64,000 nt of DNA, from IMG/VR virus record IMGVR_UViG_3300032116_000037, positions 62,001-126,000 of that record; one strand, 5' to 3'. The notes beneath the pieces were generated by a model. That model was given only the letters and a program-made list of their open reading frames with translations. It made no database searches and was not told the DNA's origin. Source of the DNA: a virus. Position numbers and translations under genes: made by a program. Below, in pieces: positions 10,017 to 55,820 of the stretch; position 1 is the first letter of the stretch; every line of letters begins with the position of its first letter.

Positions 10017-11621
10017 ATGAAATATATACCTTTAAATTGTAAAACACATTATTCTGTAAGACAAGCGATGTCTAAACCCACAGATATCAAAACTAGATTA
10101 AATAAAATAGGTCTAGATTTGTGCGGTATTGCTGATTATAGTATTGTTAGCGGGGCGGTTAAATTTAAGGATTCAATCCCTAATGGTATTATAGGTACGG
10201 AAATTTGTGATTTAGCTGGAAATAAGACTTTAATATATGCTAAAAACTATGATGGTTGGAAGCAGTTGTTAAAAATTACTTCTGTAGCTAACAGTAAAAG
10301 CGATACTTGTCTTGACAGATATTTATTAGATGCGCTGATTACAAATGATTTACTAGTTATATATCTTTATGAGGAAAATAATCCTAAGCATAATTCTTAT
10401 TATGGTGTTGATTTAAACGCTGATAATTATGTTGAAATTAGAAGAATGGCTGCGGCAAAAAATAAAAAAACTGTCGCAGTTCATTCTTCTTTTTTCTCTT
10501 CTCCTGAAGATATAGAAGATTTTACAATATTATTATCTATCGCTCATAATATCTCTTCTGAGTTAGTAAGATCTGAATTTGCTGAAATCTATAATAAAAA
10601 GTATCATATCTTGTCTTATGAAGAAGCGTTAGAATATGGATACTTGGAACAGGAGTTGCAAAATACTCTAGAACTTGAGTTTGAAGAATATAAACTTAAC
10701 CGCAATCCTATGCTCCCAAAATTTACTGATAAAGGCGATTCAAGCGCTTTATTAAAACAAATTTGTGAAGAGAATTTAGTTGGAAAAGATGAAAGATACA
10801 AAAAACAACTAGATTATGAATTAGATGTTATAAATCAATACGGTTTAGCAGACTATTTCCTTATAGTTCAAGATGTTATTAAGTACACTAATACTAAACA
10901 TGGTATGTGTGGCATTAGAGGTTCTGGTGCTGGTTCAGTCATTTCATTTTTGTCTGGTATTACAGAAGTAGACCCAATTAAATATGGGTTATATTTTGAA
11001 AGATTTATTAATCCAGGTAGAATGTCTACTACCCATATTCAGCTTCCAGATATTGATATAGATGTCCCGGCTGAAGGGAGAGAGGACGTGATCGAATATA
11101 TTAAAGAAAAATATGGTAGAGATCGCGTAGGTCAAATTTTGACATACCAAAGAATTAAAACTCACGCCGCGTTAAAGGCGGTGTTCAGGTCTAATAATAA
11201 ATTAAGTTTTGATGAAGTCAATCAAATAACCAAGTTAATCCCAGACGAAGCTAAAGTAGCTGATAAATTAAAAGAGCATAACTATTCTTCACTTCTTTTG
11301 TATGCAATAGAAAATTCTCCTGAAGAATTCAGACAATGGGTTTATATTAATGATAGAGATGAAATTGATGGAGAATTTAAAAATGAGTTTAATCAAGCCC
11401 TTAGACTTGAAGGATTAAATTCTGCAAGATCAAAACATGCTGCCGGTGTAATTATAGGACAGGTGCCATTAGATGAAGTTTGCCCAATGATTTGGGACAA
11501 CTCAAGCAAATCTTTGATTTGCGGTATGGAAATGGGCGACCTTGAATCTTTAGGATGTATGAAATTAGACATTTTAGGTTTAAGACTGTTCGATAAATTA
11601 ATTGAAATCTTTGGAGAATAA
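10017..11621 (+). CDS. dnaE: DNA polymerase III alpha-like, N-terminal half (split DnaE)
   Basis: 534 residues covering the PHP-like domain and the first part of the polymerase palm. The nucleotidyltransferase region has GIRGSGAGSVISFLSG, the catalytic PDIDID (344-349), and the third carboxylate in MKLDILGLR (D518), 16 residues before the stop. The PHP domain is degenerate: the metal-binding HLHxHSxxS of DnaE is NCKTHYS here, so it has probably lost any nuclease activity. Translation ends just past the palm; the rest of the enzyme is encoded at 12475-13998. The two products must associate to form an active polymerase. The start is 2 bases after the thyX stop. Confidence 0.9.
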   Translation: MKYIPLNCKTHYSVRQAMSKPTDIKTRLNKIGLDLCGIADYSIVSGAVKFKDSIPNGIIGTEICDLAGNKTLIYAKNYDGWKQLLKITSVANSKSDTCLDRYLLDALITNDLLVIYLYEENNPKHNSYYGVDLNADNYVEIRRMAAAKNKKTVAVHSSFFSSPEDIEDFTILLSIAHNISSELVRSEFAEIYNKKYHILSYEEALEYGYLEQELQNTLELEFEEYKLNRNPMLPKFTDKGDSSALLKQICEENLVGKDERYKKQLDYELDVINQYGLADYFLIVQDVIKYTNTKHGMCGIRGSGAGSVISFLSGITEVDPIKYGLYFERFINPGRMSTTHIQLPDIDIDVPAEGREDVIEYIKEKYGRDRVGQILTYQRIKTHAALKAVFRSNNKLSFDEVNQITKLIPDEAKVADKLKEHNYSSLLLYAIENSPEEFRQWVYINDRDEIDGEFKNEFNQALRLEGLNSARSKHAAGVIIGQVPLDEVCPMIWDNSSKSLICGMEMGDLESLGCMKLDILGLRLFDKLIEIFGE

Positions 11622-11622
11622 T

Positions 11623-11811
11623 ATGGTCTTTAAAGAACTAGCAGTTGGTGATTTATTCACAACAAATAATAATCAAGATATAGTTTATAAAAAGATAGAG
11701 CCACAAAAAAGAAACCCAAGAGGGTGTGGTTGCGATAAGGTAAATGCTGAAAATACGGCCGATAATACAAGGTTGAAATTTTCAGATTTTATGACAGTGC
11801 AAAAGATATAG
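11623..11811 (+). CDS. Small hypothetical protein between the dnaE halves
   Basis: 62 residues from ATG 11623, preceded by GGAG 8 bases upstream; an in-frame TTG at 11602 would overlap dnaE. It begins VFKELAVGDLFTT and ends LKFSDFMTVQKI, a pattern seen in short phage proteins that open with FKxLxVGDxF. There is a GCGC motif in the middle. Not an intein or endonuclease by any motif I can see. Its position inside the split polymerase locus may be incidental. Confidence 0.6.
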   Translation: MVFKELAVGDLFTTNNNQDIVYKKIEPQKRNPRGCGCDKVNAENTADNTRLKFSDFMTVQKI

Positions 11812-11818
11812 GATAATT

Positions 11819-12502
11819 ATGGATAGTACAATAATAGTATTTGATTTTGAAACAACTCATTTGGACGCTGGAACCGCCGCGTGTGATGCAATAGAGTTGG
11901 CGGCTTGCGCGATTCACTCTAAAACTTTAGAAATTGTGAAAGACAGCGAATTTTTTGTAAATATTAGGCCAGATAATATAGAAGACCCAGATTATTACAA
12001 GAATCATAAGTCTACTATAGACTGGCATGTTGGTTTACAAAAAGGTAATACTGTAGATAGACTGATTGAAAAGTGGAAGGCTGGTACTCCTGAGAAACAA
12101 GCGTGGAAAATGTTCCATGATTATGTTAACCAGTATAATCACACTAAAACTTGGCGAACAGCGCCAATCGCAGCTGGTACAAATATTTCTGATTTCGATT
12201 TAAAGATTTATGATTATTTAAATCAAAAACATAAGATGAAACCTTGTTTTCATAAGAGGGATAAGATAGATATTAAAGATTTATGTTTTTATTGGTTCGC
12301 GTTTAATCCAGACCCACCAAAATCTTTTAAAATGGATGATTTAAGACCTTATTTTGCTCTTGGTACAGAAAAAGCTCATAATGCATTGTTTGACGTACAA
12401 CAAGAAGCAACTATTATATCTAATTTCTTAAAAGTGTTTAAGAAGTATGGTAAGCAAGTAACATTAAGAGGAATGTGCGGAAAAACTGCAAGCGCTTATT
12501 AA
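11819..12502 (+). CDS. DnaQ-like DEDDh 3'-5' exonuclease
   Basis: 227 residues. Exo I is FDFETTHLD (Asp-x-Glu), Exo II lies in AGTNISDFDLKIYDYL, and Exo III is KAHNALFDVQQEA with the His of the DEDDh subtype. This is the fold of the Pol III epsilon proofreading subunit. It lies between the two dnaE halves, so it very likely proofreads for that polymerase, whose PHP domain looks inactive. The start at 11819 follows GGATAA. The last 28 bases overlap the second dnaE half in another frame. Confidence 0.88.
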   Translation: MDSTIIVFDFETTHLDAGTAACDAIELAACAIHSKTLEIVKDSEFFVNIRPDNIEDPDYYKNHKSTIDWHVGLQKGNTVDRLIEKWKAGTPEKQAWKMFHDYVNQYNHTKTWRTAPIAAGTNISDFDLKIYDYLNQKHKMKPCFHKRDKIDIKDLCFYWFAFNPDPPKSFKMDDLRPYFALGTEKAHNALFDVQQEATIISNFLKVFKKYGKQVTLRGMCGKTASAY

Positions 12503-13998
12503 TAAATATTATGGAAATTGATTATAATTACGGACCTGCTTGGGATTTGATATGTTCCGGCAATACTATTGGTATTTTCCAATTAGAAAGTAGTATTGGC
12601 CAACATTATAGTAAACTTATTAAGCCAAGAAGTATAGAAGAATTGGCAGACGTTATCAGTCTAATTAGACCTGGTTGTCTTCAAGCATATATGGAAGATG
12701 GTAAAAATCTTACAGAACATTATGCAATGCGCAAGCATGGTCATGAAGAAGCCTCGTATCTAATTCCTCAATTAGAATCTGTATTGAAAGATACTTATGG
12801 TATCTTAGTATATCAAGAACAAGCAATTTCTATCGGTACAAAACTGGCTGGTTTATCTCCTGGCGATGCTGATTATTATATTAGAAAAGTCATCGGTAAA
12901 AAGAAAACTGATATGATAGAGCAAACTGTCAAGTTAATTCTAGATGGTTTTAAAAAGAATGGTATTAACGAGAAGAAAGGCTTAGAGTTAGTTAATTGGA
13001 TTAAAGCAGGTCAACGCTATTCGTTTAATAAGTCTCACGCAGTCGCGTTCGCATATCATTCATATAAATCAGCTTACGCAAAAGCTTTAAAGATGGAAAA
13101 GTTTTTCCAAGTTTATTTAAAGCACGCGAAGCATAAAATTAAACCGAAGATAGAAATTAGAAAGATAGTGCAAAATGCACGCGCCTCTGAAATAGATATA
13201 GGCCAGCCAGACATCAGACTTAAAAATAAAGAGTTTGATATTATTAATGGTAAAATTCATGTTGGCATAACTGATATAAAAGGTGTAGGAGATAGAATCT
13301 ATACTATCATAGAGCAGTCTGAGATACCAGACACTTGGTTTGGGTTTTTGACAAACTTGGCACCTAAATTAAAAAGCTCAGCAATTCCATTAATTCAAGC
13401 CGGATGTTGTGATTTCTATCATTTAGATAGGAAAAGAATGGAGTATGAGGTCAAGATTTTTGAGCGATTTTCGGATTTAGAAAAAAAGAAAATTAAAGAT
13501 TTAAGCAAGCCAGATTTACTTTCATCTGTATCTATGGCTGTTGATACTTTGAAATTAGCTAAAAATAGAAAAATTGTATTTGAGGCAGCTTTAAAGGATT
13601 TAGAACAACCGGCCTATACTTTAGAATATAGTTGCGAACAACTAGAAAAAATGGAAATTGACCTGATTGGCGCTCCTTTGTCTTGTACTAGATTAGATGG
13701 TAATATTAAAACAGCAGTAACAAATGTATACTGTATTGATGTTATAAAAGGAAATATTCCTAAAAAGGCTATTTTGGCTGGTATAGTTAGGGAGCCACGA
13801 TTTATCAAAACTAAAAAAGGTGATGATATGTGCTTCTTTAGTTTAGAAGATCATACAGGAACAGTATCAGATTTAGTTGCATTTAAAGAATGTGTGGAAG
13901 AATATAGATATAATATAGTTGAAGATTTAACTGTATTAGTTGAGGGCGTTAAATCAAATAAAGGAACTCTAATTATAAACAGAGTAATAGAAATATAA
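12475..13998 (+). CDS. dnaE: DNA polymerase III alpha-like, C-terminal half (split DnaE)
   Basis: 507 residues from a GTG at 12475 that follows AAGAGGA; an ATG at 12511 has no SD. The sequence resumes DnaE at the linker after the palm: NTIGIFQLESS, then the fingers (VISLIRPG, YQEQAISIGTKLAGLSPGDAD) and SFNKSHAVAFAYHSY. A helix-hairpin-helix follows (GITDIKGVGDRI), and the end is an OB fold (ILAGIVREPRFIKTKKGDD ... SDLVAF). There is no tau-binding domain. Both halves together give about 1,040 residues, close to a compact full-length DnaE. The SFNKSH motif, where cyanobacterial split DnaE inteins insert, is uninterrupted, so this split is of a different kind. Confidence 0.9.
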   Translation: MRKNCKRLLINIMEIDYNYGPAWDLICSGNTIGIFQLESSIGQHYSKLIKPRSIEELADVISLIRPGCLQAYMEDGKNLTEHYAMRKHGHEEASYLIPQLESVLKDTYGILVYQEQAISIGTKLAGLSPGDADYYIRKVIGKKKTDMIEQTVKLILDGFKKNGINEKKGLELVNWIKAGQRYSFNKSHAVAFAYHSYKSAYAKALKMEKFFQVYLKHAKHKIKPKIEIRKIVQNARASEIDIGQPDIRLKNKEFDIINGKIHVGITDIKGVGDRIYTIIEQSEIPDTWFGFLTNLAPKLKSSAIPLIQAGCCDFYHLDRKRMEYEVKIFERFSDLEKKKIKDLSKPDLLSSVSMAVDTLKLAKNRKIVFEAALKDLEQPAYTLEYSCEQLEKMEIDLIGAPLSCTRLDGNIKTAVTNVYCIDVIKGNIPKKAILAGIVREPRFIKTKKGDDMCFFSLEDHTGTVSDLVAFKECVEEYRYNIVEDLTVLVEGVKSNKGTLIINRVIEI

Positions 13999-15602
13999 TG
14001 GAAAAGAGAATATTATTATTAAATGAAGCCTCAATGTTTAATAGCGGGCTTGGTAAATATGGGAAGAATCTTTTATTTAAATTAAAAGAAAGAGGATATA
14101 AAGTCGCAGAGCTGGGTTTCGGCGCAGGTGTCAACCCTCCTAATGACCAAGATATTCCTTGGCGCACCTATTATAATGAGGTGCTAGATTCCGACCCAAG
14201 AAAGCAAGTTTATAATCAAGATCCAGATAATAGATTTGGTAAGTGGAGATTCGAAAAAACTCTACTTGATTTTAAACCACATTATGTTTTATCTATTTTA
14301 GACCCATGGAATACAATGTTTATTCCTAAGTCGCCTATGAGAAAGTATTTTAACTACATTTTTATGCCTACATTTGACTCCTTTCCAGTGAAAGAAGAGT
14401 GGATGTCTAGCATAGCCGATGCTGATAGAGTGCTTACTTATAGTGATTGGGCCGCTAAAAAGTGTCCGATACCTATATTTGGAACACCTAAATACGGCGT
14501 GAATGGATTAGAATTTTTCCCTGTGCAGAATAAGAAAATGCACAAGTCAAGATTTGGAATAAATTCCAATAAAACTATAATTGGAAGCATTATGAAAAAT
14601 CAACCTAGAAAAAAGATAGCTGATTTATTTAGAATGTATAAAATGATTCTAGATAAAAATCCTAATACTATGTTGTATTTACACGCGGAGTGGCCAGGTA
14701 AAAATCCTTGGAATATACCAAAGTTATTACTAGAGTATGAAATACAAAATCATGTATTATTAACATACTACTGTATTTCATGTGAAAAGTTTTATCCATC
14801 AGTATACCAAGGTGATTGCGCTCCATGCCAACATTGCTATAGAAATGCCGCTTATATAAAAAGCTCAGCATATTCTATATCTGACACTAGTTTTAATGAT
14901 ATATATAATCTTTTTGATTTATATGTACAATATTCTAATTCAGAAGGCGCGGGCATGCCAGTCGCGGAAGCTGCTTATTGTGGTTTGCCAACATTTGTTG
15001 TAGACTATACTGCAATGGAAGATTATAAAAATACTATAAGTTCTATTCCTTTACCAATATTAGATGATAGTTGGGATATGCAGATAGATGCTTATAGAGC
15101 TTTAGTTGATAATAAAAAATCTGCGGAAATTATTTTAGATTATATTGATAAAGGTAGCGATGTTCTTCAAGCTTGTGGAGATAGATCTAGAGCACAAGCT
15201 TTAGAAATATATAATTGGGATAGAGTTGCTGATGAATGGGAAAAGGCTATAGAGTCTATACCATTAAATGATAAATGGAATAATAAAATTGATTATATAA
15301 CAACTAAACTAGCAGATAATAGTTCTCCAACTGATATAGCTTTTTTTATAAAGAGAATTATGAAAATTAATGACCCAGTATCTTTATTAGGAATTCATGA
15401 GTCAGTTATTAATAAAGAAGTTGTTAATAAATATATGGTTAAAAATGATCCACAAAGAGTTGTTAAAGATTTAAATAATTGGATCGATTATTATAACAAA
15501 TGTGAAAATATAAGAACTGGGCTAGAAACTCAAATTGAAGAAGATTTTATAGAATATGCGCACGTAAAGGAAAAAGTCCATGAAGATAACAATATCTCTT
15601 GA
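13998..15602 (+). CDS. GT-B glycosyltransferase (GT4-like) with zinc-ribbon insertion
   Basis: 534 residues. The C-terminal Rossmann domain has the GT4 EX7E motif in NSEGAGMPVAEAAYCGLP (E316, E324), which binds the sugar nucleotide. A Cys cluster (C259, C262, C274, C277, C280) inserted before that motif looks like a zinc ribbon. The final 120 residues are helical with no clear domain. It would transfer a sugar from a nucleotide donor; the acceptor is unknown. The start overlaps the dnaE stop by one base, so the sugar genes continue the replication operon. Confidence 0.82.
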   Translation: MEKRILLLNEASMFNSGLGKYGKNLLFKLKERGYKVAELGFGAGVNPPNDQDIPWRTYYNEVLDSDPRKQVYNQDPDNRFGKWRFEKTLLDFKPHYVLSILDPWNTMFIPKSPMRKYFNYIFMPTFDSFPVKEEWMSSIADADRVLTYSDWAAKKCPIPIFGTPKYGVNGLEFFPVQNKKMHKSRFGINSNKTIIGSIMKNQPRKKIADLFRMYKMILDKNPNTMLYLHAEWPGKNPWNIPKLLLEYEIQNHVLLTYYCISCEKFYPSVYQGDCAPCQHCYRNAAYIKSSAYSISDTSFNDIYNLFDLYVQYSNSEGAGMPVAEAAYCGLPTFVVDYTAMEDYKNTISSIPLPILDDSWDMQIDAYRALVDNKKSAEIILDYIDKGSDVLQACGDRSRAQALEIYNWDRVADEWEKAIESIPLNDKWNNKIDYITTKLADNSSPTDIAFFIKRIMKINDPVSLLGIHESVINKEVVNKYMVKNDPQRVVKDLNNWIDYYNKCENIRTGLETQIEEDFIEYAHVKEKVHEDNNIS

Positions 15603-15984
15603 AAATGATTATAAGGGTGATCCTACTGAAATTTTTGAAAAGATAAAAAGGAAAGCGAAAAAAATTACAGAAGTTTATTTATTAGGTTTTAGCCAAAGTG
15701 ATAAGCAAATAGAGCGTTTTGCAAAAACAAAAAAGATAAATGTTACTACTAAACTCCCTAATTGGGACGATGTAGATATTAAGGGTGCTTCTGTCAAAAC
15801 TAAAGTTGATAAAGATGGAAAAGAAAAACAATACAACGCTAGAGCAGGCTTCCAGCGCAACGAGGAAGTTATTGCTAATACAGATATCCTCGTATGGCAA
15901 GGTGCTCCGAAAGATTATAGAGCAGATATATTGGAAAAAGCGCGGTTAGCTAATATAGAGATTATTTATTTAGATGAGGTGTAA
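15580..15984 (+). CDS. Rossmann-like protein, possibly SLOG/DUF2493 type
   Basis: 134 residues with two recognisable parts: an N-terminal strand-helix unit (ITEVYLLGFSQSDKQIERFA) and a C-terminal segment AGFQRNEEVIANTDILVWQG. In that segment the order 'aG..RN..i....D.li..' matches the nucleotide-binding half of SLOG/DUF2493 proteins. These bind nucleotides or sugar nucleotides. It overlaps the glycosyltransferase gene by 23 bases and ends just before the Nudix gene. The fold call is tentative. Confidence 0.5.
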   Translation: MKITISLENDYKGDPTEIFEKIKRKAKKITEVYLLGFSQSDKQIERFAKTKKINVTTKLPNWDDVDIKGASVKTKVDKDGKEKQYNARAGFQRNEEVIANTDILVWQGAPKDYRADILEKARLANIEIIYLDEV

Positions 15985-15985
15985 G

Positions 15986-16609
15986 ATGCAAGAAGAAGTA
16001 ATGGTTGTAAGTAGAGAAATATTTGATGATGCTGGCGCTTTTCAAGGCTTCTCGTCAGACCTAGAAAAAATAGGTCAGATTTTAGATTCTAAGAATATTT
16101 CTTTTATGCCTAGAGATGAAATGGAAAAAGACCCTTCTTATAAACAAATAATTCCTTATTGCGTGTTTGGAGTTTTTAAAGAAGGGATCCCATACTTATT
16201 CTCTTATACTAGAGGCTCAAAAGGTGGAGAAAATAGGCTACATGCTAAAAAGAGTATAGGTGTAGGAGGTCATATTAATCCTATTGATTCTAACCATATA
16301 GGAGATAAGCCATCTGATATTTATGTTAATGGAATGATGCGCGAGCTTCAAGAAGAGGTTGGTTTATACTCAGGTTTTGCGCGCAAGACTATTGGGTTAG
16401 TAAATGATGATGAGGATGACGTCGGAAAAGTCCATTTGGGCGTAGTAGAGATGTTTGAGTTGGAAAACCTATTTTTAGCCATAAAAGACGAAGCGCTAGA
16501 AAGTGGTAATTTTATCCCATTAGAAGAAATTTTACAGGATAAAGATAGTTATGAAAATTGGTCAAAACTGGTTTTGGAGTATATAGATGGCTACATTAAT
16601 AATAAGTGA
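15986..16609 (+). CDS. Nudix hydrolase
   Basis: 207 residues from ATG 15986 (preceded by GAGGTG); an ATG 12 bases earlier is less likely. The Nudix box is spread around a loop: GVGGHINPID, then about 18 residues, then MMRELQEEVGL, which supplies the RExxEExGL catalytic helix. Nudix enzymes hydrolyse nucleoside diphosphates linked to another group. In this setting the substrate could be a sugar nucleotide, an NAD-like cofactor or an mRNA cap-like end; none can be chosen from sequence. Confidence 0.8.
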   Translation: MQEEVMVVSREIFDDAGAFQGFSSDLEKIGQILDSKNISFMPRDEMEKDPSYKQIIPYCVFGVFKEGIPYLFSYTRGSKGGENRLHAKKSIGVGGHINPIDSNHIGDKPSDIYVNGMMRELQEEVGLYSGFARKTIGLVNDDEDDVGKVHLGVVEMFELENLFLAIKDEALESGNFIPLEEILQDKDSYENWSKLVLEYIDGYINNK

Positions 16610-17339
16610 GCAAGACAGTAGCCTTAATGCGTTAATAGAGGCCCTTAGCGCTTCATTAGACGCGACTTCGTGTACGATTTATACTGGAAGACCAGTAGAT
16701 AAGAATTATGTCGGCACAAGCCAAATATACGAAAATTATGACTCTACCATCCAAATCTTACCTCCAGAGGAAATGTATCAATTTCCTGGCAAAAAGAATA
16801 TAGCTCTGGTAAAGTCAAAGCTCGCAAATGACGATAAGCACTTTCTTAAAAAGTTTGACTTGGTATTACCAATAGAAAGACCTTTAGATTCGGCCATTTA
16901 TACAAAAACTGAGCAGTTATTCAATCACAAAAATGAACGTCTAAGATTATATTATGAGGAAGATGATAATGCTTATGAAGTATTAAAAGCTTATTATTCT
17001 GAATTTGTTAGGGATGAAAGTGTAATATTGTATTATATTGGTGATAATTATGATGATCATGGTAAGTATGTAAAGAAAATCTTAGATAAAGATAATTATC
17101 CACATACTATGGTATTTAATAATGCTTTGTATCATAATAAAGTATCAATCTTGCAAAATGCAAATGCTACGCTTACTGAAAACGAGGAAGCTATTTTTTA
17201 TAGCAAGCCATATATTTGGTATAATCAAATGCGCAATGCATGGCTTTCATTAAAAGATTTTGAAAATAATAGAGAGTTTGTTAAAAACCCAGATTGTAAT
17301 GAAATGATTAAGAGGATTAAATGCGCATTAGAAACGTAG
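16587..17339 (+). CDS. Hypothetical protein, Rossmann-like
   Basis: 250 residues, start with GGAG upstream. Alternating strands and helices (LIISEQDSSLNALIEALSASL, KKFDLVLPIERPLD, VILYYIGDNYDDHGKYVKKIL) suggest two Rossmann-like domains, as in GT-B enzymes. No glycosyltransferase signature is visible. It lies between Nudix and glycosyltransferase-like genes and overlaps both neighbours, so it is probably part of the same sugar-related unit. Confidence 0.5.
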   Translation: MATLIISEQDSSLNALIEALSASLDATSCTIYTGRPVDKNYVGTSQIYENYDSTIQILPPEEMYQFPGKKNIALVKSKLANDDKHFLKKFDLVLPIERPLDSAIYTKTEQLFNHKNERLRLYYEEDDNAYEVLKAYYSEFVRDESVILYYIGDNYDDHGKYVKKILDKDNYPHTMVFNNALYHNKVSILQNANATLTENEEAIFYSKPYIWYNQMRNAWLSLKDFENNREFVKNPDCNEMIKRIKCALET

Positions 17340-17788
17340 CAAATAAGTTTCTCTATCCTCATAGGATGCCAGCAGTTATAGTTGATATCCATGAAGATAA
17401 TGAGTTAATGAAAACTTTTCTAGAAGTAGCTAAAAAGAGAGATTTTTTTATATATTCTTTAGAAGAAAGCAAGATTTTAAAAAAATATAACCCCGAAACT
17501 CCGTATGATGGGTGTATAATTAATAATAGGTACAGGTACAGGAACGCAAATAAGATATCTGAATTTCTTAATATACCAATCTTTCTTCTCCAAAAAGACG
17601 AGCTGCCCGATAAAAAGGAACATGGGTATTTAATGAATAAGCAGCAGCATTTTGATGCTTCTTTCTTTTTATCTGAAAAGACCGCAAAGTCTTGGTATAG
17701 CGTTCCGACTGAAATTGTAAATTTTTACGATTCTGATGAACTTAATAGGATTATAGACATTGTCAAACAACAAAAATATAGTAGGTGA
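17321..17788 (+). CDS. Hypothetical protein
   Basis: 155 residues, start preceded by AAGAGGA. It has strand-helix repeats (AVIVDIHEDNELMKTFLEVA, FFIYSLEESKILKKY) that could form one Rossmann-like domain. No motif identifies a function. It overlaps the preceding gene by 19 and the next by 29 bases. Confidence 0.5.
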   Translation: MRIRNVANKFLYPHRMPAVIVDIHEDNELMKTFLEVAKKRDFFIYSLEESKILKKYNPETPYDGCIINNRYRYRNANKISEFLNIPIFLLQKDELPDKKEHGYLMNKQQHFDASFFLSEKTAKSWYSVPTEIVNFYDSDELNRIIDIVKQQKYSR

Positions 17789-18494
17789 AAAATTCACTTC
17801 TTGTAAAGATTGTAAATTTGCTACTTGGGATGGAAACACTCAAGTCGGTTGTGAACAAGGGGTAATGGATAAGTATAAAAATATTATTGCTGCCTATGAT
17901 GAAGAAAAAGAATTTAATATTATTAATAATGATGTATGCTTATTAAAACGCGCGACTAATTCAAAATGCTCGTTAGAACAAGCCAGAAAAGAAATAAGTA
18001 TAAGATATAATTCTATTATTTTATACAAAGAAAAAACTACTAAGAAACAGTTAGAAAAAACTATAAAAGCTTTACAAGCACAGTCAATACAACCATCTTT
18101 AATATGTATTATTATACCTTTTGGTCTTGAAGTAGATATAGAAAATATCGCTACTTTATTTAAAAAATTAGAAATTAAAAATTGGAAAGTTGAATATCAA
18201 TTAAATGAAGATTCGACAGAAAATTATATTGATCGATTTATAGAAACTACAACTGAAAAGCAGCCTTGGTATTTATTAATCAACTCAGACTATCTTTTAC
18301 CAAAAGATTATTTAGAACAGATTAATAAAAGATATACTCTAGAATTAGAACAATTTGGTTTAATAAAACCAGTAGATGAAGAGCGTAATGGATTGTTAGT
18401 AAAGACTATTTTCCATGCTTATCTTGGCGGCTCTAGACAAAAATTAATTGAAAATAAATTTAACAATACGTTTGCATATTATGAAAAAAAGTGA
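17760..18494 (+). CDS. GT-A-like protein with N-terminal Cys motif
   Basis: 244 residues from a TTG start, the only choice that keeps the N-terminal Cys motif (CKDCKF ... VGCEQG, followed by a further Cys in NDVCLLKRA), which may bind zinc. The rest resembles a small GT-A domain: ICIIIPFGLEVD, a helix, then PWYLLINSDYLLPKDYLEQIN, where the Asp of INSD sits where GT2 enzymes keep their DxD. It overlaps the next gene by 14 bases. Glycosyltransferase activity is plausible but the motif is not complete. Confidence 0.5.
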   Translation: MSNNKNIVGEKFTSCKDCKFATWDGNTQVGCEQGVMDKYKNIIAAYDEEKEFNIINNDVCLLKRATNSKCSLEQARKEISIRYNSIILYKEKTTKKQLEKTIKALQAQSIQPSLICIIIPFGLEVDIENIATLFKKLEIKNWKVEYQLNEDSTENYIDRFIETTTEKQPWYLLINSDYLLPKDYLEQINKRYTLELEQFGLIKPVDEERNGLLVKTIFHAYLGGSRQKLIENKFNNTFAYYEKK

Positions 18495-19137
18495 TGTTAT
18501 AATTTTGGCGGCTTCGCCATCAAGTTATAATATATACACTCCTCTTATGAAAGTTAAGAGGAAAACATTGATTCACAACTTAGTTAAAAAAATAAGTAAC
18601 AATCCAAATGTAAATAAGATAATAGTGGTTGGCGGTCATAATTTTGAGGAATTAAAAAGAGCTTTGTCAGACGTAGATGTACATTTTGTATATAATAAAA
18701 ATTATAGCAATGGTATTTGTTCATCTATTAAAGCTGGAGTCGCGAGTGTCGAGTCAGATTCATTAATGGTTATGCATGGAGATTTGTGGTTCAAAAATTT
18801 ACAAATTAGTAAGATTTTAAAGAATCAAAAATCCTTAATTGTAGCAACTGAATGTAGACATATGAAAGCGAAGGAAATAGGAATTAGAGATTATAATGGG
18901 CAGCTACTTTATTTTGGTTGGCGCCAAAAATTAAAATGGGGAAAAATTTTCTATATTCACCAAGATTTTCGTCAAATTTTTGAGAATGTTTTGTATAATA
19001 ATAGTACAGGGAATTGGTTCTCGTTTGAAATTTTGGGCTATATGTTAAAAGCGGGCTGTAGCTTTGAAATTTTAAACCATAAGAATAGCTTGTTTGATAT
19101 AGACTGCTATCAAGACTTAAGGAAGATAATTTTATGA
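18481..19137 (+). CDS. MobA-like nucleotidyltransferase
   Basis: 218 residues from ATG 18481; a longer frame from 18448 would overlap the neighbour by 47 bases. The fold is that of the MobA/IspD/CTP-transferase group: IILAASPSS in place of LAAGxGxR, a Lys at MKVKRKTLI, VHFVYNKNYSNGICSSIKAG (typical of MocA-like enzymes), and VMHGDLWF with the metal-binding Asp. The glycine-rich loop is altered. It probably makes or edits a nucleotide-activated sugar or polyol, consistent with its neighbours. Confidence 0.65.
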   Translation: MKKSDVIILAASPSSYNIYTPLMKVKRKTLIHNLVKKISNNPNVNKIIVVGGHNFEELKRALSDVDVHFVYNKNYSNGICSSIKAGVASVESDSLMVMHGDLWFKNLQISKILKNQKSLIVATECRHMKAKEIGIRDYNGQLLYFGWRQKLKWGKIFYIHQDFRQIFENVLYNNSTGNWFSFEILGYMLKAGCSFEILNHKNSLFDIDCYQDLRKIIL

Positions 19138-24006: not shown

Positions 24007-25083
24007 ATGAAACTTTTATTCATCCCTTCTGGTCATCCTTTAATGGAGGCAGATTTATGTTTGATGTGGGAAAAGTTAGGTATAGATTGGATATCTACTG
24101 GATACTACTCTAAGTCAGAAAAGCCAGGCGATCTCCCATATATAAATTCAATGAAGCATAAAAATTTATTGAATCTATTAGATAAAGAAACTAAATGGAC
24201 TTATGATTCTGATAGGCCAAATCATCATTGTGGACAAAAAAATTTTCAATGGACCGGTCAAGTAATTAATAACTGTTTTTCTTTTTCTAGAAAATTTATA
24301 GAGAATTTTGACTGTGTAGTGGCCACTCATTTTGTTGATACTATATATAATAATATTAATGTTTTACGAAATAAAAGATTATTTTTATATACTTATGGAA
24401 TGCATTATTTAGAAGATGAGAAAAAAATTATTGAATTAAAAGAAAAACATGGGCTAACTGTTATTAGAAATTCGCCAATGGAAAAGTTGCGACCAGGAGC
24501 AATCGCGGCAAACGATCCTGTTATACGTGGTTGTATAGTTAAAGACCATGAAGAATTATCTGGGTGGAACGGTGAGACAAATAATTTTTGTACTTTTTCT
24601 TCTTTTATTAATTTGCCTGATAAATTATGCCAAACTCGTAGGAAATATTATACAGAGATTATTAAGAAAACTAAAAGAGAGTGCCATTTATTTGGCATCA
24701 ATAGTGGCACATTTTTAAAACACGAAGATAAACTTAATGTTCTTAGAAACTATAGGGCTAATCTAGTAATAGGCTCTCCTAATGCCAATAATACATACAG
24801 TTTTGTTGAAGCGTGGGTTATGGGGCAGCCAGTAGTATGCTTTGGGCCAGAAATGTGGCAAACTAAATATTCTGAGCCAGCTACATTAATTGAAAATGGA
24901 GTTAATGGTTTTATAGGAAATACTGTTGATGAATGTATTGAATACTTGAATTTATTAGGTGATGATTTTGAGTTGGCTAAGAAAATAGGCGCGGCAGGCA
25001 GAGCTTCTGCCTTACAATATTATAGTAGAGATATATTAGCTGATAAGTGGAAAACTTTATTTGTACAAAATGGATTAATTTAA
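24007..25083 (+). CDS. GT-B glycosyltransferase
   Basis: 358 residues. GT-B architecture: an N-terminal Rossmann domain opening MKLLFIPSGHP, and a C-terminal domain with NNTYSFVEAWVMGQPVVCFG, the acidic donor-binding loop of GT4-type enzymes (one Glu is clear), followed by ATLIENGVNGFIGNTVDECIEYL. A typical capsule- or LPS-type sugar transferase. The following ATP-grasp gene starts in its stop codon. Confidence 0.78.
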   Translation: MKLLFIPSGHPLMEADLCLMWEKLGIDWISTGYYSKSEKPGDLPYINSMKHKNLLNLLDKETKWTYDSDRPNHHCGQKNFQWTGQVINNCFSFSRKFIENFDCVVATHFVDTIYNNINVLRNKRLFLYTYGMHYLEDEKKIIELKEKHGLTVIRNSPMEKLRPGAIAANDPVIRGCIVKDHEELSGWNGETNNFCTFSSFINLPDKLCQTRRKYYTEIIKKTKRECHLFGINSGTFLKHEDKLNVLRNYRANLVIGSPNANNTYSFVEAWVMGQPVVCFGPEMWQTKYSEPATLIENGVNGFIGNTVDECIEYLNLLGDDFELAKKIGAAGRASALQYYSRDILADKWKTLFVQNGLI

Positions 25084-25928
25084 TGGATATTTTATTATTA
25101 GGCGCTGGAAGAAGAATATCTTTAATTGAGCGTTTTCAGAAAAAAGGGTTTAATGTTTCAGTATATGAAACTGAAGACAACGCCCCTTCAAATTTAATAG
25201 CTAAAAATTGTAAACATCTTTATAATAATGATAAAGAGGTTTGCGCGGCCCATCCTTGGTATCTAGCTTGTATGGATAAATTAACTATATTAGATTATCC
25301 TAATTATATAGGAAGCCCATTCACTGCATCTTATGCTTGTTATGATAAGGCTGGTTTTGAAGCTATTGTTGGTTTTTACTTTGCTAAATATTATCCTTTT
25401 TCCAGAATGTGGGATTCCAAAATTATTAAACCGCGTTTTGGCAATAGTAGTAAAGGGTTTAGGCCAGCTAATTGGAATGAAGATTTTAATTATAAAACCG
25501 AAGTAATGCAAAAAAAACTTGATGGGGCCGAATACTCAGTAGATTGTTATTTCAATAGAAATTCAAAATTTATTGGTGGCGTATCTAGAATTAGACAAAG
25601 AGTCGCGGGCGGCGAGGTTATAGACTCACAAGTAGATATGAAATATGATATGCTTGAAGTCACTGCCACTATTGGTGAATTTTTTAATATGAGAGGTCCC
25701 GCATGCTTCCAATATATGCTTGCTGATGATGGGTCTTTCAAATTATTTGAGATAAACGCTAGGGCCGGTGGAGGAATTATTTTATCTATGGAAGCTGGAT
25801 TAGATATCGCAGAATATATAAAACAGGAATATTATTTAGAAAAAGAAGTAAAGCCAATAGATTTAAATTCTATTAATAATGGCTTAATTATGAGAAGAGT
25901 TAATAAGGAGTTTTTCTTTAATGCCTAA
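25083..25928 (+). CDS. ATP-grasp ligase
   Basis: 281 residues from ATG 25083 (TAATG overlap). Its N-terminal pre-ATP-grasp domain is MDILLLGAGRRISLIERF. The ATP-grasp core has IIKPRFGNSSKGF (phosphate-binding loop), QKKLDGAEYSVDCYF, and the metal-binding LFEINARAGGG. These enzymes join a carboxylate to an amine or thiol through an acyl phosphate. In a sugar cluster this suggests amino-acid decoration of a sugar or a carbamoyl-type precursor; the substrate is unknown. Length is compact for the family. Confidence 0.85.
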   Translation: MDILLLGAGRRISLIERFQKKGFNVSVYETEDNAPSNLIAKNCKHLYNNDKEVCAAHPWYLACMDKLTILDYPNYIGSPFTASYACYDKAGFEAIVGFYFAKYYPFSRMWDSKIIKPRFGNSSKGFRPANWNEDFNYKTEVMQKKLDGAEYSVDCYFNRNSKFIGGVSRIRQRVAGGEVIDSQVDMKYDMLEVTATIGEFFNMRGPACFQYMLADDGSFKLFEINARAGGGIILSMEAGLDIAEYIKQEYYLEKEVKPIDLNSINNGLIMRRVNKEFFFNA

Positions 25929-26238
25929 AACTATAGTAATTGATATGGATGGAACTATATGTGAAGAGTGTAGCACTTTTGATAAGTATTGTGCGCAACC
26001 GAAGATTGGCGCGATTCAATCAATAAATCATTTATATGAAGAAGGTAATATAATTATTATTTATACGGCTCGCGCATGGCCTATGTTTAAAATGACTAAA
26101 GACTGGCTTGAAAAATATGGAGTAAACTACCATACTTTAATTTGTGGGAAGCCTCAAGCTGATTATTTTATAGATGATAGATCATTTACATCTATAAATC
26201 AATTTATGAATTATAAGAAGGATCATTTAAATGGCTAA
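25921..26238 (+). CDS. HAD-family hydrolase (small)
   Basis: 105 residues with the HAD motif I VIDMDGTI (D8, D10), motif II Thr in IIIYTARAW, motif III Lys in CGKPQADYF and motif IV in FIDDRS. It is a capless HAD phosphatase of the kind found in capsule clusters, acting on sugar phosphates or nucleotides. It overlaps the ATP-grasp gene by 8 bases. Confidence 0.85.
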   Translation: MPKTIVIDMDGTICEECSTFDKYCAQPKIGAIQSINHLYEEGNIIIIYTARAWPMFKMTKDWLEKYGVNYHTLICGKPQADYFIDDRSFTSINQFMNYKKDHLNG

Positions 26239-26956
26239 GCCAAAAATTGCAGTATGCTCAATGTTTAGAGATTCACAGGTTTGGTTTAATAAACAAACTA
26301 ATCAAGTATACAGATTGTTTTCATCTCTATTAGATCAAACATATGGATTTGAAAATTTACAATGTTATTTTTTAGAGGGTGACTCGTTAGATAACACTAA
26401 TGAAGTTTTACAAAATCTTGTAGAAAAATATAGTAATGTAAAACTCTTTAATAAAGAGGCAACATTTAACAGCGTGGTCTCAACCACTAATAAAAATAGA
26501 ATTAAATCAATGTCAAATTTAGGTTCGTATTTAATTAACCAAGTGGAAGAAGATTTAATATTTTGGGTAGAATCAGATCTTATTATAAAACCAGATATTA
26601 TACAAAGACTTTATGATAGAATGACTAAAATTCCTGAAAGTGTTAGTTCTGTTATTTCCGCTCCTTGTTATTATGGTAAAGATGGCCAATTTTATGATAC
26701 TTGGGCCTATAGGAATCTAGATGGTTCTAACTGGCGTCCAGATACTAATATGAGAAATTCTGGTATGGTAAAAATGCAGAGCGTTGGTTCTTGCGCGTTA
26801 ATACGCCGAGCTAATAATCTCGCTGTTAATTTTGGTGACGGGGCTTTTGTTGAATTGTGTGAACGAGTTAATAATTCTGGTGGAGTTGTATACGCTGATT
26901 GCAATCAATCGGTAGAGCATCCAAGAAACGAATTCATATCAGGGAGATGGATATGA
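26231..26956 (+). CDS. Glycosyltransferase (GT-A/GT2-like)
   Basis: 241 residues. A GT-A fold: IAVCSMFRDSQ, then CYFLEGDSLDNTNEVLQNL, and EEDLIFWVESDLIIKPD, in which ESD occupies the DxD donor-binding site. QSVGSCALIRRA and a late EHPRNEF are consistent with the second half of the domain. The 3' end overlaps the GT6 gene (ATGA). Confidence 0.72.
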   Translation: MAKPKIAVCSMFRDSQVWFNKQTNQVYRLFSSLLDQTYGFENLQCYFLEGDSLDNTNEVLQNLVEKYSNVKLFNKEATFNSVVSTTNKNRIKSMSNLGSYLINQVEEDLIFWVESDLIIKPDIIQRLYDRMTKIPESVSSVISAPCYYGKDGQFYDTWAYRNLDGSNWRPDTNMRNSGMVKMQSVGSCALIRRANNLAVNFGDGAFVELCERVNNSGGVVYADCNQSVEHPRNEFISGRWI

Positions 26957-27708
26957 TAGGTATAATGATAACTGCAACAAATAATTATTTCCCTTTAGGG
27001 TTAAGATTTGTTCATAGATATCTTAGGTTTTCTAAACAGGCAGAAGAAACTTTATTCTTTTTCTTTTCTGAAAAGGATCCTAGTGAATACCTTAAACAGC
27101 ATGAATCTACTAAAGTGATATGGATAAAAACAGAACATAGTAATTGGTTAGAGGGCGTAAATAATAGATTCAAAAATACTATAGATTTTGTTTTTGGAAA
27201 AAATATAGATTATATATATAATATAGATTCTGACACTAATTTTGATAAAAGTTTTGAATTGCCAAAAGTTAATGGTATTGTGGCTGGTGAACATTTTGGT
27301 AATAATAGCTGGATGAAAGATAGAAAAAATTACGATAGAAATCCTCAATCTATGTCATACGTTCCAGAAAATACTCAATTACCACAAATGTATTATTTGG
27401 GCGCGTTTTGGGGAGGTGAGGTATCAAAAGTAAAAGAGATGTGCGCAACCCTCTATTTTTGGCAAGTGCAAGATAAAACAATTAATTATGAGCCAGGAGT
27501 AAATGATGAAAGTTATTTAAATAAATATCTTCATTATAATCCTCCAAACTATACAATCTTATATAAAGATTTCCCAATGATGATATCTTGTAAAGGGGGA
27601 ATACAGAATATAAGATATAATAATCCTGCCCAAATAGAAAAACTTTTAAAAGATATTAAAATTGCTAATAATTGGAATATATTAAATGGAGTAGTACAAC
27701 ATGATTAA
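26953..27708 (+). CDS. Glycosyltransferase family 6 (ABO-type) homologue
   Basis: 251 residues from ATG 26953, with AGGGAG 6 bases upstream and ATGA overlap; an ATG at 26947 is too close to the SD. It carries all the main GT6 motifs in order: the metal-binding IDSDTNF (D92, D94; DVD in animals), YYLGAFWGG (147-155), and the catalytic NDESYLNKY (184-192; HDESHLNKY in ABO enzymes). GT6 enzymes add alpha-1,3-GalNAc or Gal with retention. Like bacterial GT6 it has no stem or membrane anchor. The DSD form of the DxD should still bind metal; many bacterial GT6 use NxN instead. Confidence 0.87.
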   Translation: MIGIMITATNNYFPLGLRFVHRYLRFSKQAEETLFFFFSEKDPSEYLKQHESTKVIWIKTEHSNWLEGVNNRFKNTIDFVFGKNIDYIYNIDSDTNFDKSFELPKVNGIVAGEHFGNNSWMKDRKNYDRNPQSMSYVPENTQLPQMYYLGAFWGGEVSKVKEMCATLYFWQVQDKTINYEPGVNDESYLNKYLHYNPPNYTILYKDFPMMISCKGGIQNIRYNNPAQIEKLLKDIKIANNWNILNGVVQHD

Positions 27709-52466: not shown

Positions 52467-53267
52467 TCAAGGTATCATAAATATAAATTTAATAGTTGAT
52501 GCTATTTTACTATAAAGCTCTGGGAAAAGTCTCGCAAATACCGCTCTAATTAACGCCAAACCTAACAGTATACCTATAATTACACCAAATATTTTAAGCG
52601 CAATATAGAAGATTCCATTTATAATTTTATGGATCCAATTAGCTAACGCCTCTAATGGGCGCAGTCTTAAATCGACAGAATTAAGCCTTTCTTCTATATT
52701 TTTTTGCCTTGCATCTATCCGTTCAACAATTATGTCTATTAAACGTCTACGCTCTCTTTCTTGATTTATTTGCTCTATTAAATTAGGTAATAAATTTAAT
52801 CTATCATTTATATCTTTTAAAGAAGCAAGTCTATCATCAAAAAGCTGCCTAATTTTATCTAAAACACGTGCTCTCTCAAGCTCATTTTTATTAAATAATT
52901 CATCAACTTTATTAGATACTTCTTCAACTAAATTTCTAATAGGTTGAAAATCTGGCTTAAGCTCTAAATTACTTAATATCTTCTTTAACTCTTCAATTTG
53001 ATTTCTTAAAGGTTGAAAGTTATCTCTTTCAGTTAAACCTTGAAGTCTTTCGTCTATCTCTATAATTCTAGAAGAGATTAAACCTAATAGGGCGCGTTGT
53101 GTTTTAGACTCTTGCCTGATACTTTCTAATATCTTATCAAACAACCCATCTTGAATATTCTCATCTTGAGTAACTACTGGTGACGGAACTGGTAGTGGAG
53201 GAAATTCATCTTGCACTAAAGCTGTAGAAACTAAAATTCCAAATGCTACAAAAAATTCGCTAATCAT
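52467..53267 (-). CDS. Coiled-coil membrane protein (spanin-like topology)
   Basis: 266 residues. A hydrophobic signal or anchor (FFVAFGILVSTALV) is followed by a Pro-rich stretch, long coiled coils with two similar segments (FQPLRNQIEELKKIL and FQPIRNLVEEVSNKV), and a C-terminal transmembrane region (IFYIALKIFGVIIGILLGLA). Two membrane anchors joined by a periplasmic coiled coil would resemble a spanin, but no lipobox is present, so the call is tentative. GAAGG SD precedes the start. It overlaps the thioredoxin-fold gene. Confidence 0.6.
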   Translation of the reverse strand: MISEFFVAFGILVSTALVQDEFPPLPVPSPVVTQDENIQDGLFDKILESIRQESKTQRALLGLISSRIIEIDERLQGLTERDNFQPLRNQIEELKKILSNLELKPDFQPIRNLVEEVSNKVDELFNKNELERARVLDKIRQLFDDRLASLKDINDRLNLLPNLIEQINQERERRRLIDIIVERIDARQKNIEERLNSVDLRLRPLEALANWIHKIINGIFYIALKIFGVIIGILLGLALIRAVFARLFPELYSKIASTIKFIFMIP

Positions 53268-53652
53268 TAAAAAAACCTTCTAAATCAGAATTGTTCCAAA
53301 ACGTTCTGACTCCTTTCCCATTCTTATCTACTTTATATTTAAATAATTTAGGTATAGATTTATCTGTACCTTCTAGTAGTTTTTTCCTTAATGCTTCTTC
53401 TTTATCGTAATCTACTAAGACGACGCTTTTTCCTTTAGGGAATATAGTCTTCTTTAACTGTTCTTTTAATCTTTGGCATGGAGGACACCAATCTGCACTA
53501 ACTAATATATAGTATGTACCTTCTTTAAAACTATTTTTTGAGTATGATTCTTTTATAAAATCATTATAGTTTTTAAAGCCGCCAATTTTCTCTTGAGTAA
53601 AGCCTAGACAAGGCAATAAACAAAATAAAAGAACAGTTAAATACCTTACCAT
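53260..53652 (-). CDS. Exported thioredoxin-fold protein
   Basis: 130 residues with a signal peptide (YLTVLLFCLLPCLGFTQ) and a thioredoxin active site ADWCPPCQRL (C56, C59). The CPPC motif and a following strand VVLVDYD agree with thioredoxin-like SoxW/TlpA-type proteins. Signal cleavage would place it in the periplasm, where it could make or reduce disulfides. The Cys-rich virion proteins encoded in this half of the genome are possible clients. No lipobox of the usual form is present. Confidence 0.8.
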   Translation of the reverse strand: MVRYLTVLLFCLLPCLGFTQEKIGGFKNYNDFIKESYSKNSFKEGTYYILVSADWCPPCQRLKEQLKKTIFPKGKSVVLVDYDKEEALRKKLLEGTDKSIPKLFKYKVDKNGKGVRTFWNNSDLEGFFND

Positions 53653-54569
53653 AGATTATTATTAATCTCCTGAGCTGGATAGCCTTTAAAATTAGATAAA
53701 GCGTATGAATCTTGCTGCTTAAGCATTCTATCTGCTGCATCAGCATCTACCCAGAACGAGCCTTCTGGTTGATTATGGCGTTTAGGGCCATCGATCCAAT
53801 TTTCACCCCATGAATTAATACAAAGCAAACCTGGGCGTTTATACTCATCATCAACACTAGAGAATAACATACAATGGGCCCATCTACCTTGTGGTCTAGC
53901 AAAACCTTCTGAATCGCGCTTCATAGTGAAGCCTTGATTTGAGCAAACTACAACTGGATAACCATTAGCGATTGCATCACGCGCCTCTTCATACGAAGTA
54001 ACAAGAGCGGTAGTTTGGATTGGATGCTCATCAGCTGTTGGCTCCAACTCATAAGGTAATTCATTAAAACCCCAAGCCTTAGCTACTTTACCAGAATAGT
54101 TAGTTAAATCATATTTATCATATTTTTTTCTCAATAGAGTTCCGTTGTCTTTAACTGCTTTTTGAGCCCAAGAACCTAAAGAACCATCCATATTCCTTAA
54201 TCTACCTTGACCTTGAATAACTCTACTAGTACCATAAATCCATTCTGTTGCAGTTAATACTCCTGGCCATTTTTCTGATTCTTTACGAAGTAAAATTTCA
54301 ACAGCCATTAATACTTCAATGCCTTTAGCATAACCATGGCTTACACAATCGCCAATAGTTTGAGTATTAATAGGAAAAGTTCCATTCCACAACTTTGTTA
54401 AAGCTTCATGTAATAATACTATTTTCTTCTCGCCTGTGCCACTTAAATTCCAAGCCGTGCTGCCGAAAAGTTTTGAAAAACTTAAAATCTCATCATGAGC
54501 TTTCGCTACACTATAATCTCTTTCTTCAGGAGCAATCCAACCAAATTCTTGACTCATTTCAATAACCAT
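53646..54569 (-). CDS. Papain-like (C1A-type) cysteine peptidase
   Basis: 307 residues. The catalytic Cys lies in NTQTIGDCVSHGYAKG (C75), His in GRWAHCMLFSS (H232) and Asn in LLCINSWGENWIDGP (N252). This Cys-His-Asn order with Q70 in the oxyanion position is the papain fold. There is no signal peptide or propeptide, so it acts inside the cell or in the virion. It may mature structural proteins or help lyse the host; the substrate is unknown. The alternative start at 54557 is possible. It overlaps the desaturase gene by 11 bases. Confidence 0.82.
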   Translation of the reverse strand: MVIEMSQEFGWIAPEERDYSVAKAHDEILSFSKLFGSTAWNLSGTGEKKIVLLHEALTKLWNGTFPINTQTIGDCVSHGYAKGIEVLMAVEILLRKESEKWPGVLTATEWIYGTSRVIQGQGRLRNMDGSLGSWAQKAVKDNGTLLRKKYDKYDLTNYSGKVAKAWGFNELPYELEPTADEHPIQTTALVTSYEEARDAIANGYPVVVCSNQGFTMKRDSEGFARPQGRWAHCMLFSSVDDEYKRPGLLCINSWGENWIDGPKRHNQPEGSFWVDADAADRMLKQQDSYALSNFKGYPAQEINNNLW

Positions 54570-55092
54570 CTCTTTCTTCAGACATTCTCTTTACTTTTAT
54601 TCCAAACTTATCTAATATACTTTCTAATTTCGCCCATGCATTAAAATAATCTAATATAGGATTTAATATATTACTTAATACACAATAACATTTATTATAT
54701 GGAGGTTTGTGATGCTTAGCGTGTTGATATTTTGTTTGTACTATAGCTGCTTCTTGTAAATAAGTAATAAAAATATTGTTTTGACTTCTATGATTCCAAG
54801 CATGAACTTCGTTGCCCATAGAAGTAAAAAAACCAATTAATACCACCCAATATAAATCGATACCTAAAATTAATAAGAAAGGAGCTAAACAAACAGTTAA
54901 AAGAATAGGGACTAAATTCCTTGTTAGAAAAGTACCCATTCTACCCATTAAGCCAGGTTGTTTGTGATGTTCAATATTATGAACGCCTATACCAAACGGC
55001 CAATCTTTTGTAGCATAGGCATCTTCAATCCAATGAAAGAGCCCAGTAAAAAAATCAGCTATTAAAAAACACGCTAAGATTTCACCAATCAT
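54559..55092 (-). CDS. CarF/TMEM189-like lipid desaturase
   Basis: 177 residues, the length of the core of this family (PF10520-type; plasmanylethanolamine desaturase). Histidines fall in its order: DFFTGLFHWIED (H20), NIEHHKQP (H42, H43), GNEVHAWNH (H97, H101) and YQHAKHHKPP (H124, H127, H128), then YCVLSNILNPILD. Three or four hydrophobic stretches (1-20, 57-90) indicate a membrane enzyme. CarF/PEDS1 desaturates the glycerol ether lipid to make vinyl-ether plasmalogen. The family extends beyond that substrate, so the substrate here is inferred. It lies within the exported-protein cassette. Confidence 0.85.
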   Translation of the reverse strand: MIGEILACFLIADFFTGLFHWIEDAYATKDWPFGIGVHNIEHHKQPGLMGRMGTFLTRNLVPILLTVCLAPFLLILGIDLYWVVLIGFFTSMGNEVHAWNHRSQNNIFITYLQEAAIVQTKYQHAKHHKPPYNKCYCVLSNILNPILDYFNAWAKLESILDKFGIKVKRMSEERDGY

Positions 55093-55820
55093 TTAATTGC
55101 TTTTAAACCTTTCGCCACTTCCAAATAGGCTGCTATATATTCGTCCTTGTCTGGAGAAACTGTTTTCATTAAATCAACATATTTAGCATTAAAATTTGAC
55201 CATTTATTTCTAACTTCATCAGTCAATCTATCTTTTAATAAAGAAGATAATTCTGTGGCCATTTGTTGTGGAGACATATTTAAACCAGCGGCTCTAGAAG
55301 CAATAGTTTCAAAACATGTAGCTAACACTTTTGCTTCCGGGCCTTTATTATCTGATCTTACTTCTGTCGCAGCTTTATATATTTCTAAAGCCAGCCCGTC
55401 TAAATCTGGAGGATTTGGGTTTGGGTTAGGGTTAGGATTTGGGTCAGGTTCTGGACCAGGAGGCGTTGGATTAACAGTATCTCCAAGTATTTCTATATAA
55501 GAAAAAGTTTTATCAAGTTTTTCCCCATAGCTAGTAATTAATATCTTATACAAACCGGGGCGGCTTGTAAAAACATATTTACCATCTTGTAATGGGAGAC
55601 ATTCTACAGTTTCAGATTCTAAAACTTCAACATCGCGGCCAGATACTTTAATTTTATATACTCTATGTATACTGATATCTACAACTTTAGATGCTTCTAC
55701 TGGCTTATAATCAAAAACTATTAATTTATAGGCTTCGCTTTTTTCAGGCGAATCTATTTGAGCAAACACTAATGAACAACTTAAGAAAACAAATAATAAA
55801 CTTAATAATACCTTTTTCAT
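55089..55820 (-). CDS. Secreted protein with Pro-Asn linker
   Basis: 243 residues, signal peptide VLLSLLFVFLSCSLVFA with cleavage likely after VFA. An N-terminal beta domain (YKLIVFDYKPVEASKVVDI) is followed by a PNPNPNPNP linker and a helical C-terminal domain (LEIYKAATEVRSDNKGPEAK). No family recognised. The linker is encoded by a GGATTTGGGTTAGGG-type repeat. The gene shares 4 bases with the desaturase gene (ATGA) and sits 1 base from the protease gene. Confidence 0.65.
   Translation of the reverse strand: MKKVLLSLLFVFLSCSLVFAQIDSPEKSEAYKLIVFDYKPVEASKVVDISIHRVYKIKVSGRDVEVLESETVECLPLQDGKYVFTSRPGLYKILITSYGEKLDKTFSYIEILGDTVNPTPPGPEPDPNPNPNPNPNPPDLDGLALEIYKAATEVRSDNKGPEAKVLATCFETIASRAAGLNMSPQQMATELSSLLKDRLTDEVRNKWSNFNAKYVDLMKTVSPDKDEYIAAYLEVAKGLKAIK
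55408..55446 (-). repeat. Pro-Asn codon repeat
   Basis: A short tandem of CCN-AAY codons (+ strand: GGATTTGGGTTTGGGTTAGGG) encodes the PNPNPNPNP linker of the secreted protein. Confidence 0.75.

Follow-up and report, generated by a model that had tools for sequence, protein, structure and literature searches.

A putative phage lipid desaturase from a second, mostly viral branch of the PF10520 family

Introduction

The closest described relatives of the phage protein reported here are CarF/TMEM189/PEDS1, which converts alkyl-ether phospholipids into plasmalogens by introducing their vinyl-ether bond, and plant FAD4, the 16:1 delta-3-trans desaturase of plastid phosphatidylglycerol. Eight essential histidines are common to all PF10520 proteins, including FAD4 and alphaproteobacterial homologues (PMC9131029). 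The functional PEDS1 proteins of animals, myxobacteria, and Leptospira contain a ninth histidine (mouse H131, CarF H113) (PMC9131029, PMC8960569), and alphaproteobacterial and plant homologues, which lack it, do not complement carF (PMC9131029). Furthermore, D100 of PEDS1 is essential, and the substitution F118A (mouse numbering) leaves 6% of the activity (PMC8960569). FAD4 is stimulated by the peroxiredoxin PRXQ (PMC12456178).

Membrane desaturases encoded by phages, for which a change of the host membrane has been proposed, as it is here, are known from Arctic brine phages (vFAD) and cyanophages. Those of cyanophages reportedly belong to the stearoyl-CoA-type family. Phage desaturases of a family other than PF10520 have thus already been described: the Arctic vFAD genes resemble stearoyl-CoA desaturase, and their products contain three histidine boxes (PMC7300359). 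We found no published account of a phage PF10520 protein in a search outside subscription papers. The original prediction knew of no described phage version; viral copies are, however, present in databases (UIS25202.1 and a Harvfovirus protein).

Sequence and predicted structure of the phage protein

The window, the 64,000-nucleotide stretch of DNA analysed here, is part of a virus record of 128,386 bp (IMGVR_UViG_3300032116_000037), which encodes a DnaB helicase, primase, DNA polymerase, ribonucleotide reductase, RNA ligase, DNA ligase, and NAMPT. The gene under study is:

54559..55092, minus strand: PF10520 'N-type' lipid desaturase (putative), 177 amino acids, ATG start

Its product matches PF10520 (Lipid_desat) with a score of 110.4 bits (E 1.4e-31), above the gathering cut-off of 26.4 bits. 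The eight family histidines predicted originally are present in order (H20, H42, H43, H97, H101, H124, H127, and H128), as is the C-terminal end YCVLSNILNPILD, and the essential aspartate is D24 in the alignment to human PEDS1. The spacing pattern of the histidines and aspartate occurs once across the six frames of the 64 kb. All eight histidines are kept in 94 of 95 aligned sequences, and the aspartate position is occupied by Asp in 91 and Glu in 4 of them. A single transmembrane helix is predicted at residues 2–19, followed by a hydrophobic hairpin at approximately residues 58–95. The AF2 model of the protein has a pLDDT of 91.6 and matches one structure significantly, a lipid desaturase of the giant virus Harvfovirus in BFVD (E 5e-6), which is named 'lipid desaturase domain-containing' in the database. 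Searches of the PDB by sequence and by fold provided no useful match.

The protein also resembles PF04116 (FA_hydroxylase), with 26 bits against a cut-off of 31. This sub-threshold likeness, together with the fold common to both chemistries, could indicate a lipid hydroxylase or another di-iron oxidase, and because the superfamily includes hydroxylases, desaturation by the window protein remains putative. Nevertheless, the far higher PF10520 score of 110 bits makes such an activity improbable, and all characterised PF10520 members known to us are desaturases.

Residues that distinguish the phage protein from CarF/PEDS1

The phage protein shares with CarF/TMEM189/PEDS1 the PF10520 domain, the eight essential histidines, the essential aspartate, and its character as a membrane protein. 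Since every PF10520 protein has these histidines, they cannot identify PEDS1; recognising that they do not by themselves denote a plasmalogen enzyme corrects a likely future mis-annotation. We read the diagnostic residues after aligning human PEDS1 and Arabidopsis FAD4 with the window protein and related sequences; the human sequence used as reference matches the published residue numbering. The position of the ninth histidine is occupied by Met52 in the window protein and by methionine in its nearest relatives, and that of Phe118 by Asn39, with asparagine in 93 of the 95 sequences. Asparagine at the site of a phenylalanine whose loss leaves 6% of PEDS1 activity implies that the active site of the window protein differs. 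FAD4 has the phenylalanine before the HH box and an arginine at the ninth-histidine site.

The NCBIfam CarF equivalog model NF045946 scored 234 bits for human PEDS1, 155–196 bits for three bacterial proteins of the F-type (see below), 80 for FAD4, and 50.9 for the window protein. Since even human PEDS1 falls short of the curated cut-off of 500, only the order of the scores is informative.

Phylogeny of the PF10520 proteins

In a tree of 49 sequences, which did not include CarF from M. xanthus, Leptospira, or alphaproteobacteria, the proteins separate with support of 100/99 into two branches. The N-type branch contains the window protein, 30 other viral sequences, and 8 bacterial sequences, whereas the F-type branch contains PEDS1, FAD4, bacterial F-type proteins, and one huge-phage protein. 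The window protein groups with viral proteins from L018 and L019 (support 100/99). In an approximately unbiased (AU) test, its pairing with human PEDS1 was rejected (p 3.3e-5), and its placement with the whole F-type branch was rejected more weakly (p 0.018). The sequences thus place the window protein in a second PF10520 branch, separate from CarF, PEDS1, and FAD4. Support for the viral N-type proteins as one group is only 77/84, so that a single origin is not firmly shown.

The two branches also differ in the number of hydrophobic segments before the first histidine. There is one in N-type proteins (none was scored in three viral rows), and there are two in human PEDS1 and all the F-type bacterial proteins. 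The difference fits an N-type architecture in which the first upstream transmembrane helix is absent. The Verrucomicrobia and Gemmatimonadota members of the N-type branch resemble the window protein in having asparagine at the phenylalanine site and one upstream transmembrane segment, but they have longer C-termini and are encoded on cellular contigs.

The proposal that the phage enzyme is a true CarF/PEDS1, which forms the vinyl-ether bond of plasmalogens, draws on the Pfam family and the conserved eight histidines and aspartate. The desaturase family assignment of the original prediction holds, but its plasmalogen reading does not: the ninth histidine and the phenylalanine are replaced, the CarF model score is 51 bits compared with 234 for human PEDS1 and is lower even than that of FAD4, the tree and AU test (p 3e-5) separate the protein from PEDS1, and homologues lacking the ninth histidine fail to complement carF (PMC9131029). 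We consider a PEDS1 activity of the window protein very unlikely.

Two further PF10520 proteins were observed alongside. A 595-kb uncultured phage (LR756511.1; L005:7983-8438) encodes a short F-type PF10520 protein with all nine histidines, the aspartate, and the phenylalanine. No other phage copy that we saw has the complete set of PEDS1 residues, although in the tree this protein joins FAD4, on long branches. A Gemmatimonadota PF10520 protein (L110:1294-2052) contains the phenylalanine and the ninth histidine and is a candidate bacterial PEDS1 from outside the myxobacteria and Leptospira.

Gene neighbourhood and selection

The genes around the desaturase gene in the window are:

53260..53652, minus strand: exported thioredoxin-like protein, 130 amino acids, CPPC motif, signal peptide
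53646..54569, minus strand: papain-like cysteine protease candidate, 307 amino acids, QTIGDC, WAHC, and NSWG motifs
55089..55820, minus strand: signal-peptide protein with a proline-rich linker, 243 amino acids
55822..56568, minus strand: exported trypsin-like serine protease, 248 amino acids

The desaturase gene overlaps both flanking genes and so belongs to a compact series of minus-strand genes. Its last 11 bp overlap the start of the papain-like protease gene, and the stop codon of the upstream gene overlaps the desaturase start codon in the sequence ATGA (55089–55092), so the two genes are probably translationally coupled. The papain-like protein has no Pfam match and no signal peptide; thus, of the exported proteases that had been predicted next to the desaturase, the trypsin-like protein is exported, but the papain-like neighbour does not appear to be. 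In L018, a homologue of the papain-like protease is encoded two genes downstream of the desaturase, and a PF00112 protease is encoded 0.8–1.0 kb upstream of the desaturase in a separate clade of soil phages (G338, G341, G343, G344, G347, and G350). The papain-like association therefore recurs in two lineages, the window with L018 and the soil-phage clade, which constitutes two events only. In the closely related phage L002, a LAGLIDADG-domain intein interrupts the papain-like protease gene adjoining the desaturase (L002:8537-10474); the insertion point is the presumed catalytic cysteine of QTIGDC, and the window copy has no insert.

In L019, a thioredoxin gene is located directly downstream of the desaturase. 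The proximity of thioredoxin-fold genes in the window and L019, together with the stimulation of FAD4 by PRXQ (PMC12456178), would suit a FAD4-like desaturase, which would desaturate an acyl chain of phosphatidylglycerol close to its carboxyl end and be helped by a thioredoxin-fold stimulator. FAD4 shares the PF10520 domain, eight histidines, and aspartate with the phage protein, the last histidine box is similar in both (HAxHHxxPYNxxYC), and the C-terminal motif HAKHHKPPYNKCYC of the window protein is closer to HAEHHRAPYNNNYC of FAD4 than to PEDS1. However, FAD4 contains phenylalanine and arginine where the phage protein has asparagine and methionine, carries a plastid extension, and groups with the PEDS1-type proteins in the F-type branch, apart from the window protein, although the tree joining the window protein to that branch was rejected weakly (p 0.018). 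We therefore regard a FAD4-like activity as doubtful.

The same locus is present in three virus records, the window and the IMG/VR contigs L001 and L002; of these two contigs, one is 100% identical to the window over the compared genes and the other 89% identical in the desaturase. Between the window and L002, the desaturase has a dN/dS of 0.036, the lowest among the six genes compared, at a dS of about 2, which is near saturation. Its codons are under strong purifying selection. The gene is host-like, and few named phage records contain it (2 of 50,697), so one could imagine that it stems from a misassembly or from cellular DNA, or that it is decaying cargo without a function in the phage. 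The repetition of the locus, the purifying selection, the location of dozens of diverse viral copies next to genes for portal, sheath, and terminase proteins, and a copy between phoH and portal in a cultured phage genome leave hardly any room for this explanation. The desaturase gene of the window is real, selected, and phage-borne.

Distribution in viruses and bacteria

The gene is also more widespread than could be known from the window. A profile scan of IMG/VR identified 94 stretches encoding relatives of the window desaturase, and nearly all the viral copies found are N-type, as are some genes of Verrucomicrobia and Gemmatimonadota. Within the CarF/PEDS1/FAD4 family, the N-type thus forms a second branch, which is carried by many uncultured phages and includes nearly all the viral copies. 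Genes within three positions of viral copies encode portal, terminase small subunit, tail sheath, tail completion, and baseplate proteins; a portal neighbour was individually attributed in L035 and L073. No homologues were found on plasmids.

Three different queries matched only two of 50,697 named phage records, which are the 595-kb uncultured phage and the cultured Erythrobacter phage vB_EliS-L02. The protein of the latter, UIS25202.1, is annotated as hypothetical and encoded between phoH and portal genes. Like the window protein, it is an N-type PF10520 protein, with a length of 178 residues and 34% identity, but it belongs to a separate sub-clade. The main text of the vB_EliS-L02 paper contains neither 'desaturase' nor 'lipid' (PMC9127768). 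This phage provides a system in which the function can be tested directly.

A scan for viral F-type (PEDS1-like) proteins with a bacterial profile gave 62 pattern matches, none of which was confirmed; PEDS1-type viral copies therefore look rare, although the scan relied on two short patterns. Among sampled bacterial genomes, PF10520 was detected in 1 of 195 from Verrucomicrobiota, in 5 of 121 from Gemmatimonadota, and in 11 of 148 from a single Gemmatimonadota family; every sample contained the genome used as its starting point.

Putative substrate and function

The verrucomicrobial N-type gene is located directly upstream of an LplT-Aas lysophospholipid-remodelling pair. The desaturase gene is followed by one for an MFS protein that is 32% identical to E. 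coli LplT (E 4e-36), and then by one for a fused acyltransferase/acyl-ACP synthetase that is 37% identical to E. coli Aas (E 1e-154). All nine loci with sufficient flanking sequence have both genes after the desaturase gene, with 79–98% identity to the L012 copies. In E. coli, the LplT-Aas pair moves and re-acylates lysophospholipids. Because the pair handles lysophospholipids, the simplest assumption is that N-type proteins act on a phospholipid acyl chain, and we infer this substrate mainly from the verrucomicrobial arrangement, which offers a testable hypothesis for the whole branch. No such pair was detected around the Gemmatimonadota genes of either type, and none was seen near phage copies. 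Separately, an Aas-like acyl ligase adjoins the F-type gene of L104.

It is sensible to deduce from a lipid-desaturase-family protein in a phage that host membrane lipids are changed. We think it fairly probable that the window gene encodes a small O2-dependent membrane di-iron desaturase of phospholipid acyl chains, from a distinct and mostly viral N-type branch. We know of no N-type protein that has been assayed. The enzyme would be embedded in the inner membrane of the host, its histidines facing the cytoplasm, and would use O2 and a host reductant, perhaps aided by the neighbouring thioredoxin-fold protein. Desaturation of an acyl chain of host phospholipids would then alter the properties of the membrane during infection, probably late. 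The stimulation of FAD4 by a peroxiredoxin makes the window thioredoxin an attractive but unproven partner; however, its signal peptide would take it across the membrane, away from the cytoplasmic histidines, and thus speaks against a direct contact with them, and its role as redox partner is a guess.

A broader and more speculative proposal is that the N-type is a mainly phage-borne class that makes its own late lipid product, with an unusual double-bond position or a hydroxylation, and is encoded among virion and tail-region genes, repeatedly near papain-like proteases. Such a product could serve in lysis, the exclusion of other phages, or envelope remodelling.

Other features of the phage genomes

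Shine-Dalgarno-like sites precede 30 of 56 starts, compared with 9% of random positions. The nearest phage matches of the polymerase and of a helicase/exonuclease ORF are diffuse, and host assignment failed. A DUF1501 gene is located near the desaturase of a related 126-kb viral contig (L019:6473-7702). The DUF1501 family is common in Planctomycetes, and the gene is a possible hint of a Planctomycetes host.

The DNA polymerase III alpha-type gene of the window (10017–13998) is divided into two ORFs (10017–11621 and 12475–13998), with no Rfam intron match. The ORF between the polymerase halves (11819–12502) starts with FDFETTHLD, resembling a DnaQ-type 3'-5' exonuclease. In a simple scan, a region of about 8.6 kb of the phage genome (L097:10077-18668; G000 10077-18668) contained no ORF of at least 90 residues. 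Elsewhere, genes for a ribose-phosphate pyrophosphokinase and a nicotinamide phosphoribosyltransferase adjoin each other (L098:4993-7332; G000 24993-27332), constituting a phage NAD salvage pair.
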